From: a virus
DNA: 32,578 bases
Reading direction: 5' to 3' (one strand)
IMG/VR virus record: IMGVR_UViG_3300030331_000786
Coordinates: 1 to 32,578 of that record
Below, in pieces: positions 5,494-32,578 of this stretch. Position 1 is the first letter of the stretch, and each line of letters starts with the position of its first letter. The notes beneath the pieces are model-generated. The model did not search any database, had not been told where the DNA came from, and was given only the letters and a program-made list of their open reading frames with translations. Both the position numbers and the translations under genes were made by a program.

Positions 5494-6327
5494 TCAATCT
5501 CCACAAAAGCACGGGATCGTCTCGCCCCCTGCCAAATCTAATTGTCCCTGCTCTCTGGCAATGACTTGCATCTGCGCGTAGCTGGGCCGGTCGTTACGCC
5601 ATAATGCCCCTGATTGTTGGCTGGCAGGGACTTCACGCTCCATCCTAGCCCACCAATCTGCCCTGCTAGGGCGTTCCACTATCAATGATTCAATCAGGTT
5701 TGCTCCCTTTAGGTAACAGAGATCGCAGTTACCATGCGGCGTAACGCCGTTGACGTTTGACAGTTTGAGGTCAAATGGTTGCTGTGCCCAGAATTGGCTG
5801 ACTGTTTCTTTGGTGACGCCCGCTGCCACTAGCGGCCTGCGATGCGGCTCTATCTTGGCGGCTCGACGTTGCTCGTCAGCCCTGATGCCAACGATCGCCA
5901 TGTTTTCACCATGAGAACGCTTCTCGCAAAGACCAACTGAAAGCAAGTAATTAGCAATCGTGCGAATCTTTAGCTCAATCGTGCAGAACCGCGCCACGGG
6001 GTTTGGCAGATACTTTTTGGCGTGAATCAACGCCTCAAACGGCTCGCCATTCCTCGCGGCGGTATCAAAATCTACCACCTTAAAGCGATCTTTGGTTTCC
6101 TCTGCCCACTGATATTCAAGCCAGACAATCGGCACACCCCATTCTTTGCTACATCTTTCTACAAACCTGAGCGTTGCTTCCTCTTCTTTGCCGGTGTTTG
6201 CAAAGGTGACAATGCAGTCATCAGGCAGGCCATCATTAGCCTCAATAAACCGCCACAGCATATAGGCGCTAGTCCTGCCGCCACTAAAGCTGATGCAGGA
6301 TGGCTCTGTCAGCTTAAAAGGATTCAT
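5494..6327 (-). CDS. Phosphoadenosine phosphosulfate reductase-family protein
   Basis: 277 residues. The N-terminal SGGRTS at residues 15-20 is the PP-loop that binds adenylated substrates in PAPS reductases and related ATP pyrophosphatases. Cysteines at C115 (ARFCTIELK), C201/C204 (CDLC) and the final CFCGD are spaced as in the subfamily that carries an iron-sulfur cluster, to which the DNA-sulfur enzyme DndC also belongs. Substrate is not readable from the sequence. Cysteine synthesis support, RNA or DNA thiolation are all possible; the setting among DNA-modifying genes favours nucleic acid work. ATG at 6327 lies within the previous 55-codon gene, a 14-nt overlap. No dnd partner genes are present. 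Confidence 0.8.
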   Translation of the reverse strand: MNPFKLTEPSCISFSGGRTSAYMLWRFIEANDGLPDDCIVTFANTGKEEEATLRFVERCSKEWGVPIVWLEYQWAEETKDRFKVVDFDTAARNGEPFEALIHAKKYLPNPVARFCTIELKIRTIANYLLSVGLCEKRSHGENMAIVGIRADEQRRAAKIEPHRRPLVAAGVTKETVSQFWAQQPFDLKLSNVNGVTPHGNCDLCYLKGANLIESLIVERPSRADWWARMEREVPASQQSGALWRNDRPSYAQMQVIAREQGQLDLAGGETIPCFCGD

Positions 6328-6737: not shown

Positions 6738-7150
6738 AACTCATCCTTTAATGTTTGCGGGAACGGGACATAAATGCCCTTATGCTCTGAGAGCCACCGT
6801 ACAAGCACCTCAGCGGCTTCGCTCAGTTCCTTGCCGGTTAGCTTAGTGGTGGACGTTTTATCGTACATGGCCTTAATGATGGGCTTGTAGAGCATCTCCT
6901 TTACCAGCCCCTCAGTGAAAGGTATTTCAATCTTATCGTTAAAGGGGTGGGTCGCCGTAAACCCAGCATCGTTTAGCTGCTCTGCCATCTGCCTGAACCA
7001 GAGGTGCATGGCGTTGTTCTGCCTCTCAGTCCTACCTGCTGGCTTGATTGAGTAAAGTAAATGATTGCCTTGGGCAAACTGATCTTTTACAAAGTCTGCA
7101 AAGAACTCCAGCTTCTCCTGGCTGTCTACTATCCATCTATGGCCGTCCAC
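6734..7150 (-). CDS. ninB: NinB-like recombination protein
   Basis: 138 residues from the GTG at 7150, which has GGAGG 6 nt upstream. The longer TTG start at 7177 would bury that site. The central RTERQNNAMHLWFRQMAEQL segment looks like the NinB family signature (R-x2-Q-N-x-x-H/L-W). Lambda NinB (Orf) binds single-stranded DNA and can replace RecFOR in homologous recombination. The N-terminal half would be the beta domain and the C-terminal half is helical. It overlaps the methyltransferase end by 14 nt and is coupled to the next gene by ATGA. Together with the NinG-like gene it makes a small recombination module. Divergent, so moderately sure. Confidence 0.6.
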   Translation of the reverse strand: MDGHRWIVDSQEKLEFFADFVKDQFAQGNHLLYSIKPAGRTERQNNAMHLWFRQMAEQLNDAGFTATHPFNDKIEIPFTEGLVKEMLYKPIIKAMYDKTSTTKLTGKELSEAAEVLVRWLSEHKGIYVPFPQTLKDEL

Positions 7151-8003
7151 GCTCTGCCTCCATAATTTGTCTACCAATCAACTCTGGTATCTGAGGCACT
7201 ACCGCGTTACCTAAGCATTTAAGTCTGTGTGACCTAGAGGGAACCCCATTAGCCACTCGACCCACGTTGGGTTCAATGTCCCAGTTAGCCACTGCTCTGA
7301 TGATTCGCCTCTCACAAATGGGTGGTTTCCCAGCATTGATTTCATATTGCCCTCCGGCGTTCCCGCCGCATCCTCGTTTGCTGTTGGCGTCGGCAGAACG
7401 TGAAAGGCTACTTGTGCTGCTAAGTGGCCCTGACCTCTTGGCTTTAGCCGGTAATACTCTTTCAAGCTCGCTTGCATCGAGGCCGATTGGCTGCTTGCAG
7501 ACGTTGGGGTAAGCCACAATCCAGACCCTATCTCTGTGATGGTGGGCGCCAATCGCGGAAGCTGGTATACAGTGCCACTCCGCATCGTACCCGACCGAGG
7601 AAATGTCCCATAAAACTCGCTTAAACCAATCTCCCCCGTCTCCAGTAAGCAGGTTTGTGACGTTTTCAAAGATGGCGTATCGGGGTCGAACGTCCCCAAG
7701 AAGACGGGCGCACTCTGACCACAACCCACTGCGCTCTGCATGAATTCCTTTTTGGCTTCCTGCAACGGAGATGTCTTGGCATGGGAATCCCCCTGTGATG
7801 ACATCGACTTCAATTCCATCGGAAATAAGTCTGTCTGCTGTGATTCGTCTGACATCATCATAAATCGGCACTCCTGGCCAGTTCTTTTTCAATACCTTCT
7901 GCGCGTAATCGTCTATCTCACAAAAGGCTGCGGTTTCGAATCCAGCGGCCTCTAAACCAAGGGCAAAACCGCCGATTCCGCTGAACAAATCCAAGACTTT
8001 CAT
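7137..8003 (-). CDS. dcm: DNA (cytosine-5) methyltransferase
   Basis: 288 residues with the C5-methyltransferase motifs in order: motif I DLFSGIGGFALGL (5-17) for S-adenosylmethionine binding, motif IV GGFPCQDIS with catalytic C75, motif VI FENV (E113), motif VIII HHHRDRVWIVA (153-164), and motifs IX-X NGVPSRSHRLKCLGNAVVP (252-270). The target-recognition region between 165 and 245 is short, and its specificity cannot be read. No restriction enzyme lies nearby, so protection from host restriction or control of phage DNA is likely. The gene is also open in a second frame for 216 codons, described separately. The start has a weak ribosome binding site. Confidence 0.93.
   Translation of the reverse strand: MKVLDLFSGIGGFALGLEAAGFETAAFCEIDDYAQKVLKKNWPGVPIYDDVRRITADRLISDGIEVDVITGGFPCQDISVAGSQKGIHAERSGLWSECARLLGDVRPRYAIFENVTNLLTGDGGDWFKRVLWDISSVGYDAEWHCIPASAIGAHHHRDRVWIVAYPNVCKQPIGLDASELERVLPAKAKRSGPLSSTSSLSRSADANSKRGCGGNAGGQYEINAGKPPICERRIIRAVANWDIEPNVGRVANGVPSRSHRLKCLGNAVVPQIPELIGRQIMEAERGRP
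7211..7861 (-). CDS. Overprinted frame inside the methyltransferase gene, 216 aa
   Basis: This frame lies entirely within the methyltransferase gene on the same strand, shifted relative to it. It is not the usual random shadow. Its peptide has segments I recognise as recurrent in phage and bacterial proteins: HAKTSPLQE, the YGTFPRSGTMRSGTVYQLP region, GSGLWLTPTSAS, VLPTPTANEDAAGTPEGN, and the ending NPTWVEWLMGFPLGHTDL. These are produced by the same bases that encode methyltransferase motifs IV to X. The start would be one of three ATGs at 7861, with no good ribosome binding site. Either a true overlapping gene or a frame forced by the conserved methyltransferase codons. Expression is unproven. 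Confidence 0.35.
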   Translation of the reverse strand: MMMSDESQQTDLFPMELKSMSSQGDSHAKTSPLQEAKKEFMQSAVGCGQSAPVFLGTFDPDTPSLKTSQTCLLETGEIGLSEFYGTFPRSGTMRSGTVYQLPRLAPTITEIGSGLWLTPTSASSQSASMQASLKEYYRLKPRGQGHLAAQVAFHVLPTPTANEDAAGTPEGNMKSMLGNHPFVRGESSEQWLTGTLNPTWVEWLMGFPLGHTDLNA

Positions 8004-8148: not shown

Positions 8149-9324
8149 TCACCACTTTTCCCCCTGCCAACGGTAAAGTTTTGCATTGTTTGTGGGATTT
8201 CTGCGGAGTTTCAAGATATTGTTCTTCAGCAAATCCATGCAGTTACGCAGGGTCTTTTTCGTGCATTCGTTAGGGTTCATATGTTCGTCTGACAGAAGTC
8301 TGAATAACTCAGCCTGACTATATTCAGCGCCGCCGCTCATAACGGACTCAAGAAATAACACTTCGTCCTCATACTTAGAAAAAGCCTTTCCTACATTGAT
8401 CTGCGCCGTCTGCTTCTTCTTCAAATCGCTGATGTCATCTTCATCAAGGAACTCAACAGAATCGACTGACTCTTCATAGCCGACCGTCTCATTGGTCTGC
8501 TTGTATCGGAACCCGCCAGAAAAAGAGATTTGCTTGCGATCCTTCTCGTTAATAACCAGAAGCTCTTGGTGGTCCGCGAACTTGTCGTTTAGGGGGTCTA
8601 GGCCAAACATATTGTCTACGTCAGCCTTGAGGTCGCCTACGCCTTCGTAAATTAAGCGACCGTCCAGCGATCGGTGCTTGTTACAGTGACCCAAAAGAAT
8701 GATGGTGCCACCTTCTGCTGCGAACTGCCTGAAAACGTGCAATATGTCTCTCATGTCGCCCTTGTTCAATACTGGCGCAAACTTCTTCAAGGTATCGCAA
8801 ATGACAATCTTGCCGTCAGCGTGACCCTCTAGGCGTATCATGTTCAGTAGGCCCAAGGCATCTTGGGTGGTGCGTAGGCCAGGATCTTGGCTTGTAGCTA
8901 AGGTGATCATTGACATCCCGTGCTTCTGACCCATCTTTGCCTTCTGTACTACACCTCTGGCCCCGTCATCTTCGTTGAAATAGATAACGTCTGAGCCTTT
9001 GATGAGGTTGTTGCGGATTGATTTAAACAGGCTACCCAGAATCCATACCGTCTTACCGGCCCCAGATGGCGCGTAGACGAGTGTTACGGTTCCGGTAGTA
9101 ATCATGCCTGAGATTACTTCGCGTTCGTTAGCGAGCCTCTCCTCAAGCTCTGCGATGCGATGATTGGTGGACGCGGCTTGCAGTCTAGCCAGAGATGACA
9201 TCATTGGTTGTGCATTGCCATTCATGCCGACTGAGTGCCGCTCGTAATCTGAATAGTCTGATTGATAACTCCTGGCTGATTTGATCTCTGATATTTTATT
9301 CATTAGATCGTCGTCACGAGACAC
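8149..9324 (-). CDS. RepA/RecA-fold AAA ATPase, probable replicative helicase
   Basis: 391 residues from the GTG at 9324, which has AGGAGG 9 nt upstream. The longer TTG at 9342 would encode that site as Arg-Arg. Walker A APSGAGKT lies at 85-92, the Walker B-like IVICDT at about 173-178, and a sensor-type IILLGHCNKH at about 208-217. This is the pattern of the AAA_25/RepA-like hexameric helicase family. The C-terminal third is charged and may be a winged-helix DNA-binding part (AEYSQAELFRLLSDE). It overlaps the primase-domain gene by 11 nt, so the pair likely acts as a split primase-helicase in phage replication. Confidence 0.78.
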   Translation of the reverse strand: MSRDDDLMNKISEIKSARSYQSDYSDYERHSVGMNGNAQPMMSSLARLQAASTNHRIAELEERLANEREVISGMITTGTVTLVYAPSGAGKTVWILGSLFKSIRNNLIKGSDVIYFNEDDGARGVVQKAKMGQKHGMSMITLATSQDPGLRTTQDALGLLNMIRLEGHADGKIVICDTLKKFAPVLNKGDMRDILHVFRQFAAEGGTIILLGHCNKHRSLDGRLIYEGVGDLKADVDNMFGLDPLNDKFADHQELLVINEKDRKQISFSGGFRYKQTNETVGYEESVDSVEFLDEDDISDLKKKQTAQINVGKAFSKYEDEVLFLESVMSGGAEYSQAELFRLLSDEHMNPNECTKKTLRNCMDLLKNNILKLRRNPTNNAKLYRWQGEKW

Positions 9325-9805
9325 AGTAAGCATCCTCCTCAACGACCTTATATCGCCATGCTGAATGATTTTTTAACACCTTTACGAACTCCTGAAGTTT
9401 GTTCACATCCATACCTTTTAGTTTTTCTCCGCGCCTGAAAGCGCCGTGATAGACCAGACACCAGTGCATCATGTAATCGAGGTCATCGGCAGAATAGTCC
9501 CGCACCCAAGTTGTGGAATTTTCAGCCCACATGCCCTGACTCCGTAAGGCGTTCAGAACTTCATCTTGAGTACAACCACTGAAGCAATGCACAAGGATCT
9601 TGTCATCAGCCTCAGTGATTGTCAGGCTGGGATTGCGATCGTCATGTGCGGGGCAGCAGGCAACATACTCAAACCGGCCGACCTGCTTGAACTTAGGTAA
9701 ATTAGATAGCTTGTTTAATATGCTGGCAGGACTTTCGCGCTGTACTTCTTTTCGCGTCTCACCAAATGGACTAAAGCCCAAAGGACCATTTTTATTTTCT
9801 GCCAC
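9314..9805 (-). CDS. Primase-type CHC2 zinc-finger protein
   Basis: 163 residues. The motif CCPAHDDRNPSLTI followed by ILVHCFSGCTQDEV supplies C51, H54, C74 and C78, the zinc ligands of the DNA primase CHC2 domain that reads template sequence. No TOPRIM catalytic core follows; after residue 90 there is only a helical tail. It therefore looks like a stand-alone primase DNA-recognition subunit working with the adjacent ATPase. Start GTG at 9805 has AGGGG 7 nt upstream. First gene of the leftward replication and recombination operon, divergent from the annealing-protein gene at 9979. Confidence 0.8.
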   Translation of the reverse strand: MAENKNGPLGFSPFGETRKEVQRESPASILNKLSNLPKFKQVGRFEYVACCPAHDDRNPSLTITEADDKILVHCFSGCTQDEVLNALRSQGMWAENSTTWVRDYSADDLDYMMHWCLVYHGAFRRGEKLKGMDVNKLQEFVKVLKNHSAWRYKVVEEDAYCVS

Positions 9806-11879: not shown

Positions 11880-12086
11880 TTACGCCTCCGTCCTGATTTT
11901 TTCGTACAGCGCCTCAAGGTGTACCAGCGCCACGTCTAAGCCAGTTTCCTTGCCGCGCAAGTAACCCTCCATCGAGCGATCGTCTTGTGACATCGCCTGT
12001 TGTAGCTTCAGCAGCGCATCCTGATGCAGTTCTTTGACTCTTCTCAGAGACCAATCTACTTCGGTTAACGTGTCAAACTTGCTCAT
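11880..12086 (-). CDS. Hypothetical helical protein, 68 aa
   Basis: Almost entirely helical and charged (SLRRVKELHQDALLKLQQ region and VALVHLEALYEKI), so probably a short coiled coil. ATG at 12086 overlaps the upstream stop as ATGA, with AGGGGGTGAAGC before it. That is the same start context used by most genes of this block (purine-rich AGGGG, then A/G-rich spacer ending CA before ATG). Function unknown. Confidence 0.6.
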   Translation of the reverse strand: MSKFDTLTEVDWSLRRVKELHQDALLKLQQAMSQDDRSMEGYLRGKETGLDVALVHLEALYEKIRTEA

Positions 12087-12442
12087 TGCTTCACCCCCTG
12101 TAGTCGATCGACGATCATGCCCGTATCACGTAGCGCCATCGCTACATCATCGGATGGGTTGCGTACCTTTCCCAACCAATCCTGGGCAGCCTCAAGGCTG
12201 GCGATCGCCTCCGCAATACGGAACCGATTTACCTTCGCCAGATCCTCCGGTGATATGGGTGCGTGAGTAACGCGCCTTTCAATATCGGGGAACAAACTGC
12301 GTGAGGTACTGCGGAGCATGTCGGGATATATATCGTCATCGCTTCGCGTAATGTCCCGCGCATGACATAGCAACGCCTCGCACTCCGATTCTGTGAGTTC
12401 TGGGCATACCTTGCCCACATAATAAACGTCTAGGTTTTGCAT
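12083..12442 (-). CDS. Hypothetical protein, 119 aa
   Basis: The ATG at 12442 is chosen because GAGGGTGAAACA precedes it; an upstream in-frame start at 12493 lacks a site. The product reads MQNLDVYYVGKVCPELTESE at its start and has a helical C-terminal half containing AIASLEAAQDWLGKVRNP. No recognised domain. A short near-palindrome AGTGccgacaacatgccgaCACT (12465-12486) lies just upstream. Coupled to the 68-aa gene below it. Confidence 0.6.
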   Translation of the reverse strand: MQNLDVYYVGKVCPELTESECEALLCHARDITRSDDDIYPDMLRSTSRSLFPDIERRVTHAPISPEDLAKVNRFRIAEAIASLEAAQDWLGKVRNPSDDVAMALRDTGMIVDRLQGVKQ

Positions 12443-12506
12443 TGTTTCACCCTCTTTTGTTGATAGTGCCGACAACATGCCGACACTTTGCAAAGTTTAC
12501 CAATGT

Positions 12507-15366: not shown

Positions 15367-15468
15367 GAATATTAACTTCTAAAAAGTTGTCCTTCTTATT
15401 GCTTTTTGTTTGGGGTATTGGTTGTCTTTAGTGGGTGCCATATCGCCCCACACATTCCCAGTTCTGAA

Positions 15469-15636
15469 ACTTGCTTGTTGCCAACAAGTAAGTTACTTGT
15501 CGTGAACAAGTATCTGGCTAGTTAGTACTCACTAACATCGGGTTAGTTGGTTAGTGCTTACTAACATCCAGGTTGGTTAGTACTCACTAACAACTTACTT
15601 GTCGCAAGCAAGTATCTTACTTGTTCGGAACAAGTA
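15469..15636. promoter_or_regulatory. Symmetric array of seven palindromes (A-A-B-B-B-A-A)
   Basis: A sites: 15469-15493 (core CTTGTTGCCAACAAG), 15494-15512 (TACTTGT-n5-ACAAGTA), 15596-15614 (TACTTG..CAAGTA) and 15618-15636 (TACTTGTTC-G-GAACAAGTA). B sites: GTTAGT-n4-ACTAAC at 15521-15536, 15550-15565 and 15576-15591. A-site centres are 22 bp apart within each pair, two helical turns. The layout is nearly mirror-symmetric around the middle B site. Best read as binding sites for two dimeric regulators or a replication-origin complex. No regulator gene is recognised. Confidence 0.8.
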
Positions 15637-15875
15637 ACTTGGGCGGGGGCGGTGACAACTTTAAATTTATTATTATTGTAGCCCCCCAGCCACAAAAAAA
15701 GCCAAAATGGGGATATCTCAAGTGTCTGTTACCAAAAGAAACATTAAGTGTTACCGTGTTACCTTTGGTAACAAATATTTATTTTCAAAAAAGGGTTGTA
15801 GTACTTGAATATTAATATAGGATAGGGTGGGTAGGAGGGCTTAAATGGCCTTTTAATTTTTTAAGGAGAGCTAAA
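15637..15875 (+). promoter_or_regulatory. Leader of the rightward late block with GTTACC sites
   Basis: This 239-bp stretch holds no convincing gene. GTTACC occurs at 15728 and 15750, and as a perfect palindrome GTTACC-TTT-GGTAAC at 15758-15772, a third operator type. Downstream, TTGTAG (15796) and TAGGAT (15818) spaced 16 bp make only a weak promoter candidate. An AAGGAG ribosome binding site precedes the gene at 15876. The 64-codon open frame here has no start signals. Confidence 0.5.
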
Positions 15876-16076
15876 ATGGAAACTAGACCAGAACATACTG
15901 TTGAGTATCGTTCCGTTGATTATTATTCAATGTGTGAGAAGTCCAAGGCCAAGGTAAAGGCTATGCAGGATGCTGGTTTTAGCACTATGTATGATGCCAA
16001 ATCTACGCCTGAAGAGACTGAAATCCATAATAATGGCAATATGGGCGGTTTTTCTGTCGTAATGATGGGTAAGTAA
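15876..16076 (+). CDS. Small hypothetical protein, 66 aa
   Basis: ATG at 15876 has AAGGAG 7 nt upstream. The product starts METRPEHTVEYRSVDYYSMC and is charged and mixed helical, ending in a Gly/Met-rich GGFSVVMMGK; no family is recognised. First gene downstream of the palindrome array. A B-type palindrome overlaps its last codons and stop (16073-16088), so its 3' end doubles as a control site for the terminase genes. Confidence 0.6.
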   Translation: METRPEHTVEYRSVDYYSMCEKSKAKVKAMQDAGFSTMYDAKSTPEETEIHNNGNMGGFSVVMMGK

Positions 16077-16088
16077 GTGCTTACTAAC
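16073..16088 (+). promoter_or_regulatory. Isolated B-type palindrome before the terminase genes
   Basis: GTAAGTGCTTACTAAC differs by one base from the middle B site of the array (GTTAGTGCTTACTAAC) and lies 10 bp before the ATG at 16099. The 12-nt core AGTAAG-TG-CTTACT is also a palindrome. Likely bound by the same regulator. Confidence 0.6.
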
Positions 16089-16098
16089 CTGCAATCCT

Positions 16099-16263
16099 AT
16101 GGCTGACGTAGGTGTTCTGGAGCAGATAGCTGATCATCTGGCGGATATTGTTGATGAGCTAAGAATTTTCAATCAATTTCTAGCGGATATAGATGAGCGA
16201 ACAGGATTCACAGAGCCATTACCAGAAGCGGAAGGCGGAACTCAAAGCAAAGAAAGCAGATAA
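16099..16263 (+). CDS. Small hypothetical protein, 54 aa
   Basis: Reads MADVGVLEQIADHLADIVDE followed by LRIFNQFLADIDERTGF: an amphipathic, acidic helix pair, then a polar tail. It overlaps the next gene by 71 nt in another frame and has no clear ribosome binding site, so its start is uncertain. The regular heptad-like pattern and its fit between the operator site and the terminase-small candidate argue for a real gene. Function unknown. Confidence 0.42.
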   Translation: MADVGVLEQIADHLADIVDELRIFNQFLADIDERTGFTEPLPEAEGGTQSKESR

Positions 16264-16633
16264 GCCCTCTAACAAGGAGTTGGCGGCTAGATCCCCTGGC
16301 GGAAGGGGTAAAATAGGCCGACCAAAGGGTGATGCCGCTATTATCAACGAGTATAAGGCTCGTATGCTGGCGTCTCCTAAGTCTAGAAGGGTGCTGGATA
16401 CCATATTTGAAGCTGCGCTGGATCATGAACACAAGAATCAGGCTGCTGCATGGAAGCTGGTGATGGATCGAATACTGCCTGTAGCCGCATTTGAGAAAGA
16501 TGTTATAAACAGTAGCGGTAAATCGGCTATCCAGATTAATATCACTGGCGTTGGTGGTGCTGAGATATCGCCGGAGCCTACGATAAATCAAACAACGATA
16601 GACGGTAAGTCCGGTGAGATACTTCAGGATTGA
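16193..16633 (+). CDS. Terminase small subunit candidate
   Basis: 146 residues. A basic N-terminus (QKRKAELKAKKADK) leads to GGRGKIGRPKGDAAIINEYK, a DNA-contacting stretch followed by a helical region (ARMLASPKSRRVLDTIFEAA and on to WKLVMDRILPVAAFEKD), then a polar tail with IQINITGVGG. This architecture and its position just upstream of the lysis and large-terminase genes suggest the DNA-recognition subunit of the packaging motor. The family is very divergent and no diagnostic motif exists. The start overlaps the 54-aa gene; ribosome binding site weak. Confidence 0.5.
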   Translation: MSEQDSQSHYQKRKAELKAKKADKPSNKELAARSPGGRGKIGRPKGDAAIINEYKARMLASPKSRRVLDTIFEAALDHEHKNQAAAWKLVMDRILPVAAFEKDVINSSGKSAIQINITGVGGAEISPEPTINQTTIDGKSGEILQD

Positions 16634-17296: not shown

Positions 17297-17487
17297 CTCC
17301 TGAACAGCTTAATGCATGGCGAATCATTCCAAGGATATTGATGTTTGCCATGATAGCTATGACATACCGTACAGTTGAATGGTTTATGTCTTTGCCCGAT
17401 CCTAATCCTGAGCAAGCGGCTCTGGTTAGCGTAATGACAGGCGCATTGACTGGATCTTTTGGTTTATTTTTGGGCAAAAAAGAATAA
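17293..17487 (+). CDS. Holin-like membrane protein
   Basis: 64 residues with two membrane helices, about 11-32 (IIPRILMFAMIAMTYRTVEW) and 42-61 (AALVSVMTGALTGSFGLFLG), a short cytoplasmic-type start (MTPEQLNAW) and a GKKE tail. This layout and the MTPEQLNAWR start are familiar from marine podoviruses, where the gene sits directly before the large terminase. A holin would release the M15 peptidase two genes upstream. ATGA overlap with the previous gene; TAATG overlap with the terminase. Confidence 0.7.
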   Translation: MTPEQLNAWRIIPRILMFAMIAMTYRTVEWFMSLPDPNPEQAALVSVMTGALTGSFGLFLGKKE

Positions 17488-18737
17488 TGGCTGACTTGAA
17501 CGTACAGCTATTGCCGTGGCAGCAGGATGTATATTCTGATCCTACGCGCTTTAAGGTAGTTGCTGCAGGCAGACGTACAGGAAAGTCTAGACTCGCCGCA
17601 TGGTTGTTGATCATCAATGGCCTACAAGCTGACAAAGGCCATGTCTTTTATGTAGCCCCAACACAGGGGCAAGCACGAGACATTATGTGGCAAACTCTTA
17701 TGGAGTTAGGCCATCCAGTAATATCAGGCTCTCATATTAATAACTTACAGATTAAGCTTATAAACGGCGCAACCATTAGCTTAAAAGGAGCTGACAGGCC
17801 AGAAACCATGCGTGGTGTGTCCTTGAAGTATCTTGTGATGGACGAATACGCTGATATGAAGCCTGATGTATGGGAGCAGATACTGCGTCCAGCCCTTGCA
17901 GACCAAAAGGGTGAGGCTTTGTTTATTGGTACGCCTATGGGCCGCAATCATTTTTATGAATTGTATAAGTATGCTGAGCTTGGTGATGATGAAACTTACA
18001 AGGGCTGGCACTTTACGAGTTACGATAATCCAATTCTAGACTCTGGAGAAATTGATATAGCCAAAAAATCAATGTCCAGTTATGCATTTCGTCAGGAGTT
18101 TATGGCCTCGTTTGAGGCTAGAGGCTCAGAAATGTTTAAAGAAGAGTGGATAAATATTGGCGAGGGTGATAGTGATGGAGACTATTATATTGCCATTGAC
18201 CTTGCAGGCTTTGAGGACGTAAACAAAAAGCGAACCAAGAATACAAATCTAGATGAAACGGCTATTGCAGTAGTAAAAGTTGGCACAGATGGTTGGTTTG
18301 TTGAAAACATTATTCATGGCAGGTGGGAACTGAACGAAACTGCTATGAAAATCTTTCAAGCGGTACGTGATTACCGCCCTGTTAGTGTAGGAATCGAAAA
18401 AGGCATAGCAAAGCAGGCCGTAATGTCGCCCTTAACGGACTTGATGAAGAGATATGGCATGTTTTTCCGTGTTGAAGAGCTAACTCACGGGAATAAGAAG
18501 AAAACAGACAGGGTAATGTGGGCATTGCAGGGCCGATTTGAAAACGGGTATGTTACGTTAAATAAAGGCGAATGGAATACGCGCTTTTTAGACCAGTTAT
18601 TCCAGTTCCCAGATGCTTTAACGCATGATGACTTGGTGGATGCATTGGCGTATATAGATCAGTTAGCCCAGGTTGCATATGATTATGAGTATGAAATTGA
18701 CGACCACGAGATATTGGATGTGGTAGCAGGATACTAA
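17487..18737 (+). CDS. terL: Terminase large subunit
   Basis: 416 residues. The packaging ATPase has Walker A AAGRRTGKS (26-34) and Walker B YLVMDE (115-120). The RNase H-like nuclease has IAIDLAGFED (D238), GIEKG (E304) and HDDLVDALA (380-388, catalytic Asp). It translocates DNA through the portal and cuts concatemers. Lengths of ATPase and nuclease are normal for compact phage terminases. Coupled to the holin-like gene and followed one base later by the portal gene. The terminase type that would fix the packaging mode cannot be told by eye. Confidence 0.95.
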   Translation: MADLNVQLLPWQQDVYSDPTRFKVVAAGRRTGKSRLAAWLLIINGLQADKGHVFYVAPTQGQARDIMWQTLMELGHPVISGSHINNLQIKLINGATISLKGADRPETMRGVSLKYLVMDEYADMKPDVWEQILRPALADQKGEALFIGTPMGRNHFYELYKYAELGDDETYKGWHFTSYDNPILDSGEIDIAKKSMSSYAFRQEFMASFEARGSEMFKEEWINIGEGDSDGDYYIAIDLAGFEDVNKKRTKNTNLDETAIAVVKVGTDGWFVENIIHGRWELNETAMKIFQAVRDYRPVSVGIEKGIAKQAVMSPLTDLMKRYGMFFRVEELTHGNKKKTDRVMWALQGRFENGYVTLNKGEWNTRFLDQLFQFPDALTHDDLVDALAYIDQLAQVAYDYEYEIDDHEILDVVAGY

Positions 18738-27431: not shown

Positions 27432-28297
27432 AGAAACTTAGTCTTGTGCTGTGTCTTTTTTTGGGTGGCTGTGCTTCTGCAACAACTGAATACTACGAAG
27501 CTGTGACAGCGGCGGCAAATGCCAATGCGGCGGCTTCTCAGGCCAAGTTTGATGCTTTGGCGAAGATTGCCTCTTCTGGAGATGGGCAGGCGGCTAGTGC
27601 AGCCGTAATGGCTTTGGCCCTTACTAAGACACCAACTATTGCGCCAGTGCCACAGCAGTCTCAAAGCATTCAATGGGCCAGTATTTTGGCGGCACCGATC
27701 ACTTCACTAGGCATGGCATGGGTGCAATCTGATGCGTCAAAGAGTATTGCAAAATATAACGCAGATGTCTCCTTAGCAAGGGTACAAGCAACATCTCAGA
27801 GCAATGCTGCATTATATGGGGCATTTGCCGACATGAATCAAGGAACTGTTGATTTAGGGGTTGCTGGTATTGATGCGGCAGGATCTACTCCCGACTATTC
27901 AGATTTTATTGACGGAATGGTTACTCTTGGAACAGCAGGAATTACAGGTGCAGTCGATCTAGGCATAGCTGGATTTGACTCAAATGTTGATTTAGGAACA
28001 GCAGGATTTAATGCAAATGTAGATATTTCTACGGCTGGAATAAATGGACTTGTGAATTTAGGTAACACAAGTGTTACCAGTGTTGTGGAGATGGGTAACA
28101 CTGGGATCGCTGGGGTAACAAATGTGTCTCTTGATGCGTTTGATGCAATTTTAGATTTGGATACTGGGAATAACTCATTGCTTGAGGGGGTTTGGGAAAA
28201 TTACACCACTTCCATTGAGCAGATTATTGATGATGTCCCGCGTGTATGTCAGGCAACAACAAATGAAGATGGCGAGCTGGTGTTGGTGTGCAACTGA
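27428..28297 (+). CDS. Phage lipoprotein with undecapeptide-like repeats
   Basis: 289 residues from a GTG with GGAG 6 nt upstream. Signal peptide MKKLSLVLCLFLGGC with lipobox LGGC, so C15 is probably lipidated at the outer membrane. After a helical Ala-rich part, residues about 158-245 carry about eight 11-residue units of the kind V-D-L-G-T-A-G-F-x-x-N, which suggests a beta-solenoid. Overlaps the upstream membrane protein by 4 nt. It could be an o-spanin partner, a receptor-masking (superinfection exclusion) protein or a virion part; no family known to me matches. Confidence 0.6.
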   Translation: MKKLSLVLCLFLGGCASATTEYYEAVTAAANANAAASQAKFDALAKIASSGDGQAASAAVMALALTKTPTIAPVPQQSQSIQWASILAAPITSLGMAWVQSDASKSIAKYNADVSLARVQATSQSNAALYGAFADMNQGTVDLGVAGIDAAGSTPDYSDFIDGMVTLGTAGITGAVDLGIAGFDSNVDLGTAGFNANVDISTAGINGLVNLGNTSVTSVVEMGNTGIAGVTNVSLDAFDAILDLDTGNNSLLEGVWENYTTSIEQIIDDVPRVCQATTNEDGELVLVCN

Positions 28298-28470
28298 TGG
28301 CTGATGAGGGATTGAAACAAGTAGCAGATACTGTATCTGTTGCAACGGGTGTTGGTGCCCTTACGGGCGTGTTACCGGCTTTGAGCGCGTTAGTAACGAT
28401 TGTCTGGATGTCTATCCGTATTTGGGAAACAGACACTGTACAGCGGTTATGTGGGCGAGGTAAGGCATAA
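28297..28470 (+). CDS. Holin-like single-helix membrane protein, 57 aa
   Basis: ATG at 28297 shares one base with the upstream TGA; the longer frame to 28288 is unsupported. A hydrophobic segment runs over about residues 20-43 (VGALTGVLPALSALVTIVWM), followed by IRIWETDTVQRLCGRGKA, a charged tail I recognise from small membrane proteins of marine phages. Second holin candidate besides that at 17293. Could be an antiholin or pinholin. Confidence 0.5.
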   Translation: MADEGLKQVADTVSVATGVGALTGVLPALSALVTIVWMSIRIWETDTVQRLCGRGKA

Positions 28471-28850
28471 TGTTGCAGGCATTGATAGCACCAATAGCTA
28501 ACCTAGCTTCTGGTTATCTCAGCAACAAGCACGAGCAGGCACAGGCCAAACATCAGGCTAAATTGCAGGTGATACAAAATGATGCTGATTGGGAATCAAA
28601 GATGGCTGCGGCTTCAGCATCTAGCTGGAAGGATGAGTTCTGGACTATCGTACTTGCCGTCCCGCTCTTCTGTCTGGGTTACAGCATTATTGTTGATGAT
28701 CCCGCTATTCTTGACCGCGTTTCTGACAGTTTTTCTGCTTTGGATTCTTTGCCAGATTGGTATCAGTATCTACTATTTTTGGCAGTATCTGCGTCATTTG
28801 GAATCCGTGGTGCTGACAAGCTCATGAAGCTAAAAGGGGGTAAACAATAA
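28470..28850 (+). CDS. Conserved phage membrane protein, 126 aa
   Basis: N-terminal amphipathic helix, a charged coiled coil (about 20-50), then two membrane segments at about 58-76 (FWTIVLAVPLFCLGYSIIV) and 98-114 (YQYLLFLAVSASFGIRG) joined by an acidic loop, and a basic end. The 'PDWY.......A.SFG..G.DK' ending is frequent in marine phage proteins of unknown role near tail genes. Possibly a holin-like or ejection protein. Start overlaps the previous stop. Confidence 0.6.
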   Translation: MLQALIAPIANLASGYLSNKHEQAQAKHQAKLQVIQNDADWESKMAAASASSWKDEFWTIVLAVPLFCLGYSIIVDDPAILDRVSDSFSALDSLPDWYQYLLFLAVSASFGIRGADKLMKLKGGKQ

Positions 28851-31676: not shown

Positions 31677-32578
31677 ATGGCTCAGCCATTACAAAGCATT
31701 AATTTAGTTGCCCCTGGGTTTAAAGGGGTCAACACAGAAGACTCCCCGATTGGGCAGGATTTTTCTTTTGCGGATGTTGCCGATAACGCAGTAATTGACA
31801 AGCGTGGACGTATCGCTGCCCGCAAAGGCGTGAAGTTATTAACAACTGTGAAGACTCCATTGGGTTCTGACTACGTTACTAGGCTTCATTACTTTTATGA
31901 CAATGCAAACAACGATGAGATATTTGTTACAGGAAATAACAAGATATTTAAAACAACAACCACTTCAACTACTGACGATACTCTCACGGATATTACTCCA
32001 GGGTCATACAGCATTACGGCCGACAACTGGAAGATTGTAAACTTTAATGATAAAGCATACTTTTTCCAAAGAAACCTTGACCCTTTGGTTTACGATAATA
32101 CCAATGGCTTACGGACCTTCACAGTTGTAAACAGCGCATCTACTAATGCTGCGCTCAAATGCAATGAGGCTATTGCTGCCTACGGCAGAATGTGGATTGC
32201 TGATAACAACACAGACAAACAGACTATCTTCTGGTCTGATCTTCTGATTGGTAACGACTTTACTGGCGGTTCTAGCGGTTCTATAGACGTATCGAAGGCT
32301 TGGCCTGATGGTTATGATGAAATACAGGCACTGTATGCACACAACAATGCCCTGATAATCTTTGGTAGCCATAGCGTTCTTGTGTACGGCAACGCTTTTA
32401 GCCCAGCTAATATGGCCCTGATTGACACCATATCAGGAGTTGGCTGCATTGACAGAAACTCTGTACAGGGCATAGGGACCGACGTTTTGTTTATGTCCCA
32501 AACTGGGTTGAGGAGCTTTGGGCGCACAATTCAAGAAAAGTCCCTGCCTTTGTCTGACTTGAGCAAAAACGTCAAAAC
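31677..32578 (+). CDS. Tail tubular protein B-like, N-terminal part (runs off right end)
   Basis: ATG at 31677 follows GAGGATATTGGTGT. The first residues read MAQPLQSINLVAPGFKGVNT, then EDSPIGQDFSFADVADNAVI and DKRGRIAARKG, an opening common to large tail-tube/nozzle proteins of marine podoviruses. Beta-propeller-like repeats follow (NNDEIFVTGNNKIFKT, AYGRMWIADNNTDKQTIFWS, NALIIFGSHSVLVYG). No stop before the end. The frame continues exactly in the first 770 bases (521 residues in total). T7 gp12, the positional counterpart, is longer. Confidence 0.75.
   Translation, partial: MAQPLQSINLVAPGFKGVNTEDSPIGQDFSFADVADNAVIDKRGRIAARKGVKLLTTVKTPLGSDYVTRLHYFYDNANNDEIFVTGNNKIFKTTTTSTTDDTLTDITPGSYSITADNWKIVNFNDKAYFFQRNLDPLVYDNTNGLRTFTVVNSASTNAALKCNEAIAAYGRMWIADNNTDKQTIFWSDLLIGNDFTGGSSGSIDVSKAWPDGYDEIQALYAHNNALIIFGSHSVLVYGNAFSPANMALIDTISGVGCIDRNSVQGIGTDVLFMSQTGLRSFGRTIQEKSLPLSDLSKNVK
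32473..32578. repeat. Right copy of terminal direct repeat
   Basis: Matches 1-106 with one substitution (32480 C versus 8 T). Lies inside the tail-tube B-like gene, so the repeat is coding sequence and no gene is interrupted at the genome ends once they are merged. Confidence 0.95.

Follow-up and report, generated by a model that had tools for sequence, protein, structure and literature searches.

Palindrome arrays resembling SlmA-binding sites in a variable slot upstream of phage terminase genes

Known SlmA-binding sites and the array in the phage genome

Phages are known that stop the division of their hosts by small proteins directed at FtsZ. On the bacterial side, SlmA is an FtsZ antagonist of the TetR family, a nucleoid-occlusion protein that stops division over the chromosome. 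When bound to its DNA sites (SBS), SlmA antagonises FtsZ polymers, and together with a multicopy plasmid carrying tandem SBSs it causes a lethal block of Z-ring assembly (PMC3573117); relocating arrays of nucleoid-occlusion sites to the terminus delays division (PMC4726725). SlmA can also act as a transcription factor (PMC5519180), and one report describes its binding to lipids (PMC7468209). The 12-bp ChIP consensus in E. coli is GTGAGTACTCAC (PMC3116907), and the duplex of the biochemical studies contains the 20-bp GTAAGTGAGCGCTCACTTAC within 5'-AAGTAAGTGAGCGCTCACTTACGT-3', a native E. coli example being SBS17, GTTAGTGACCATTTACTTAC (PMC4423959, PMC7468209). In E. coli and Vibrio cholerae, SBSs are single sites scattered over the non-Ter part of the chromosome. 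The phage locus described here shares with them the half-sites (GTNAGY/RCTNAC), the core, the double site and scores like those of SBS12 and SBS17, but differs in that its sites form a tandem, helically spaced array by the packaging genes, mixed with other palindromes. No report of SBS arrays in phages was found in the open-licence literature.

The window, i.e. the whole stretch of DNA that was analysed, comprises 32,578 nt (IMG/VR record IMGVR_UViG_3300030331_000786). Its ends (1-106 and 32473-32578) share a 106-bp overlap with a single mismatch, and an ORF spans the join; although classed as linear, the record is thus effectively a complete and circularly permuted genome of ~32.5 kb. The early genes, most of them on the minus strand, occupy the region left of the array and include a PAPS-reductase-like protein (5494-6327, a weak match), a C5 DNA methylase (7137-8003) and, at 8149-9805, an AAA_25 helicase together with a DnaG-type zinc-ribbon protein that is separate from it; neither an integrase nor a repressor was noted. 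To the right, and facing rightward, are a 66-aa ORF, a putative terS, and the endolysin, terL, portal and capsid genes. The 66-aa ORF (15876-16076, plus strand) has no assigned function but is conserved (64% mean column identity in an alignment of 17 sequences) and serves as the marker of the locus. The putative terminase small subunit (16193-16633, plus strand) is named from its position upstream of terL; it has no family match, but shows ~40% identity over 79 aa to ORFs preceding terL in four other contigs (L133/141/145/157). The large subunit (17487-18737, plus strand) matches Pfam Terminase_6N/6C.

The array occupies 15474-15634, within the intergenic region that separates the leftward early gene block from the rightward late one, and its seven palindromes stand in the order A-A-B-B-B-A-A, as the earlier note had described. 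The A pattern, CTTGT-N5-[A/G]CAAG, was found by pattern search at A1 (CTTGTTGCCAACAAG, 15474-15488), A2 (CTTGTCGTGAACAAG, 15496-15510), A3 (CTTGTCGCAAGCAAG, 15598-15612, the most constant A site among relatives) and A4 (CTTGTTCGGAACAAG, 15620-15634), none of which is assigned a strand. The B pattern, GTTAGT-N4-ACTAAC, forms the exact 16-mers 15521-15536, 15550-15565 and 15576-15591, each within an SBS-like 20-mer: B1 (GCTAGTTAGTACTCACTAAC, 15517-15536), B2 (GTTGGTTAGTGCTTACTAAC, 15546-15565) and B3 (GTTGGTTAGTACTCACTAAC, 15572-15591). Centres of neighbouring A sites are 22.0 bp apart on both sides of the array, the remaining distances being 21.5-25.5 bp for A-B and 29 and 26 bp for B-B. Both patterns are restricted to these seven places in the window, which disposes of the concern that they might be equally frequent throughout the genome, and among 200 resamplings that preserve dinucleotides, two A- or B-pattern sites never came together within 170 bp. 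With up to two mismatches allowed, B is found six times (0.77 expected; none of 100 shuffles reached six) and A four times (1.7 expected); the count of A alone is unremarkable, and its weight therefore rests on clustering.

The window was scanned blind with the 20-bp SBS consensus of E. coli. The best 20-mer in all 32.6 kb is an extra B-type site at 16069-16088 (GTAAGTAAGTGCTTACTAAC, 16/20), overlapping the end of the 66-aa ORF; B1, B2 and B3 are tied in second place with one unrelated site at 5713 (14/20 each). Native SBS17 and SBS12 score 15/20 against the same consensus, one match above the array sites. By chance alone, about one match at 14/20 is expected in a genome this large, and the five sites at or above that level compare with 0.81 on average over 300 permuted palindromes, one of which reached five. 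B also has the architecture of an SBS, with half-sites GTTAGT, GTAAGT and GTGAGT, a 16-bp unit, and a 20-bp double unit in which two such units overlap with a shift of 4 bp. Many of the SBS-like sites consist of two 16-mers shifted by exactly 4 bp, among them 16069/16073 in the window and sites in several relatives; in the three array B sites the second unit is weak (two mismatches). Such doubling fits the binding of SlmA as a dimer of dimers. Taken alone, the array sites of the window are a moderate match to the E. coli consensus, and the case for SlmA rests on the family-wide pattern.

Variation of the slot in related and unrelated phages

Through the conserved 66-aa ORF and TerL, more than 150 related contigs were retrieved, all of them metagenomic. 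Their common backbone has GGGT-10 nt-CACTCACACT to the left of a variable slot and, to its right, a G-tract, an A+T-rich segment, CCCACCCANNNACAAAAAAA and ATATAGGATAGGG. In the window, on the plus strand, the conserved left border of the slot is GTGGGTGCCATATCGCCCCACACATTCCC (15431-15459), and the slot is closed by the G-tract GGGCGGGGGCGG (15641-15652), which reads GGGGGGAGGGG in most relatives and is C-rich in a few. The A+T-rich stretch with the conserved [C]CCACCCANNNACAAAAAAAGC block follows at 15660-15703, and another block conserved in relatives, ATATAGGATAGGGNGGG..AGGNGGGC, lies upstream of the 66-aa ORF at 15814-15841. A role of the G-tract as a strand-specific R-loop primer was rejected, since the strand of the tract flips between relatives; FtsK KOPS sequences were sought in the tract of the window and are not present.

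The slot itself is filled in many ways. Relatives carry AABAA, AAABAA, ABBBAA, arrays of an unrelated palindrome G (GTTCC-N5-GGAAC, which takes the places of A in some relatives), G mixed with B (e.g. GGGBG), a single B, or nothing. Asymmetric orders thus occur beside symmetric ones, and the conserved mirror symmetry proposed in the earlier note does not hold; moreover, 3 of the 35 possible orders of four A and three B sites are mirror-symmetric, so that the symmetry of the window is weak by itself. What relatives with the same flanks do keep is the dyad lattice, while the order and number of sites vary, A may be replaced, or the array may be missing. Dyad centres are 22.0 bp apart for A-A and for most G-G pairs (some 28 or 50 bp), most A-B steps measure 21.5 bp and G-B steps 22.5 bp, and longer steps of 25.5-29 bp separate tandem B sites and some of the A-B pairs. 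Dyads thus keep to an almost constant pitch of two helical turns, B taking the inner and A or G the outer positions, whereas the recognised sequence is interchangeable. What stands of the proposed symmetric complex of two proteins is that the lattice, phased with the helix, carries two or more distinct recognition sequences.

The exchange can be very local. The slots of L027 (G type) and L255 (A/B type) are wholly different, although the two contigs show 95% identity across 3 kb on the right and 91% across 2.2 kb on the left. Protein clustering of the left flank (~10 kb) of 19 relatives yielded no family whose distribution distinguishes AB from G arrays. By eye, positions 1-190 of L033, upstream of the 66-aa ORF, read like a stand-alone LexA-type DNA-binding domain, and three contigs (L255, L264, L027) carry an orthologue of the window's 12083-12493 ORF with an inserted domain resembling an AlpA/excisionase HTH; the insert does not track the array type. 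In more distant relatives the array is absent, which shows that it is not essential to the locus. Tandem A sites are found in this clade alone, the remaining matches being coding or dissimilar.

B has a much wider distribution. A scan of viral contigs for tandem B sites returned more than 119 stretches, and in a large set of them the array immediately precedes terS-terL of a P22-like, unrelated terminase family, here named TerS1; there too a G-tract and an A+T-rich stretch come after the array. Fourteen B-bearing records that were searched whole have one B locus each. Compared by phmmer with two near-complete TerS1-family genomes, the window has in common with them a virion protein and a weak TerL match, but no early protein. 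The common phage form GTTAGTGACCACTAAC is identical to SBS17 in its first 11 bases. In the TerS1-family genomes G009 and G002 every match of 15 or more falls inside the array, with scores of up to 17/20; across 80 TerS1-family loci the exact 12-mer GTGAGTACTCAC occurs seven times in the 45.6 kb upstream of terS against none in 335 kb elsewhere, and GTNAGYRCTNAC 169 times against none. Within 50 loci of the window's own family, 40 of the 44 SBS-like sites are located between -650 and +700 of the 66-aa ORF (in the slot or the interval between the ORF and terS), and the other four at +865 to +1317. For comparison, the 12-mer with up to two mismatches shows neither enrichment nor a clear SBS set in a 500-kb oriC-proximal region of E. 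coli, indicating that natural sites are degenerate and the test a weak one. One TerS1-family relative (L245, MW202483) has an array of GTTTAYGTAAAC palindromes at ~28250-28700, where its relatives carry SBS arrays; this would be another interchangeable motif family.

Candidate readers of the palindromes

A reader encoded by the phage itself is opposed by two results given above: no left-flank family tracks AB versus G arrays, and no early protein is common to the window and the TerS1 genomes. As B occurs in phages without common early proteins, and the array type follows no phage gene, the reader of B would most simply be a host protein. The earlier note did not consider host SlmA for this role, and B appears best explained as its binding site. 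We propose, with a probability of roughly 60%, that the B dyads (15517-15591 and 16069-16088) are sites for host SlmA placed on the lattice of the slot, through which division of the infected cell would be blocked. Two other readings of the dyads were rejected. Among 84,980 bacterial species genomes, tandem B sites turned up in one unrelated Firmicute and in no other; this practical absence argues that they are not prophage operators, and speaks against lysogeny. An RNA hairpin is disfavoured by the little or no loop of many of the relatives' dyads (20-mers), which a dimer site in double-stranded DNA fits better. Searches of cultured phages and plasmids gave no near-consensus array.

The strongest competitor, which we nonetheless regard as unlikely, is an operator or enhancer of an early/late switch, read by host TetR/MarR-type regulators, with the likeness to SBS arising from look-alike operators. 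The position between leftward early and rightward late genes, the helical phasing of the dyads and the presence of at least two motif families all suit such a switch, as does the ability of SlmA itself to regulate transcription. Regulators of the TetR or MarR type other than SlmA could plausibly use GTTAGT..ACTAAC as an operator: the lone tandem match among bacteria is that of the Firmicute, and copies of GTTAGTYATRACTAAC are scattered over many large A+T-rich contigs. The exact copies of the 12-bp SBS consensus and the doubling by a 4-bp offset are, on the other hand, specific features, and no linked repressor gene was found. The genetic switch considered in the earlier note, if taken as phage-encoded, is not supported, nor is a phage repressor operator or immunity region: in the left ~10 kb neither a repressor nor any other gene co-varies with AB or G arrays.

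The likelihood drops further for a replication origin, in which the dyads would be initiator iterons beside an A+T-rich unwinding element. Palindromic iteron origins of the lambda ori type likewise have an array of dyads of ~16-20 bp next to an A+T-rich stretch, and such a stretch does follow the G-tract here. Unlike these origins, the window has no linked initiator, and the motif family swaps while the replication genes stay unchanged: the array type differs between phages that are ~91-95% identical in both flanks and have the same replication-gene families, and it follows that the dyads are not read by a phage initiator. The GC-skew calculation suggested in the earlier note places the cumulative minimum of the window at 15792, near the array, but skew follows gene direction, and since transcription diverges at the same place it cannot separate an origin from gene orientation. 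DnaA-box-like sequences point in both directions. Next to the array, the TerS1 family shows a ~150-fold enrichment of TTGYCYACA-type nonamers and one of ~190-fold for TTRTCCACA, whereas the TTWTMCACA box is absent from the window. Tandem TTGYCYACA nonamers extend up to ~750 bp upstream of terS in TerS1 loci (e.g. L455-L534), and the TerS1-family locus may also be a candidate origin.

Least probable of all is a packaging start (cos or pac) with the dyads as terminase-binding, cosB-like sites, for although several families have the slot upstream of terS-terL, and the starts of five contigs from different lineages coincide at one backbone base to its left (GGGT^10 nt CACTCACACT), the dyads are swapped or absent beside ~95% identical terS-terL, unrelated terminases have B in common, none of three contigs ends at that base from the left, and near-complete TerS1-family contigs break at many other places. 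As the dyads vary next to unchanged terminase and replication genes, they are explained neither by packaging nor by initiation. The five contig starts (L251, L258, L273 (=L006), L305 and L067) suggest a physical genome end (cos or pac) after GGGT, at 15436/15437 in the window; the left border may thus be a packaging end, of which the dyads are not the terminase sites.

Predicted consequences of SlmA recruitment

If B is a set of SlmA sites, host SlmA would load onto the phage DNA there. As the genome with its four SBS-like sites multiplies, complexes of DNA-activated SlmA would dissolve FtsZ polymers everywhere in the cell, which would stop dividing and stay one large factory. The expected block of division is drawn by analogy from the lethality of multicopy SBS plasmids. 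A second dimeric protein, with a sequence preference that differs between lineages, would occupy the outer A (or G) dyads and is probably not encoded in this phage region; a search for a candidate reader of A or G found none. Membrane attachment and transcription control are alternative outcomes that recruited SlmA might also have, by analogy with its other activities.

Comparable arrangements are the plasmids pUC-2xSBS (PMC3573117) and those with Noc sites (PMC4726725), in which several sites on a multiplying replicon are likewise predicted to activate the inhibitor throughout the cell; those are laboratory constructs, whereas the window represents a natural phage arrangement. Lambda Kil, a phage-encoded FtsZ antagonist (PMC3961180), is comparable in the predicted block of cytokinesis during infection, but is a protein inhibitor, where the phage described here would use DNA sites that employ the host's own inhibitor.

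A broader proposal, made more tentatively, is that unrelated lytic phages independently gained tandem SlmA sites upstream of terS as a protein-free, cis-acting decoy, with A and G as interchangeable docking sites for a second host factor on the shared lattice. If SlmA is indeed the reader, some phages would block division by DNA alone, with host SlmA sites multiplying along with the genome. This would account for a conserved yet hypervariable non-coding region in abundant aquatic phages, and would hint at an SlmA-bearing host for phages to which no host is assigned. A different pattern, unlike the terS arrays, is seen in five large A+T-rich virus contigs (L102, L105, L120, L129 and L166), which contain many scattered copies of GTTAGTYATRACTAAC.
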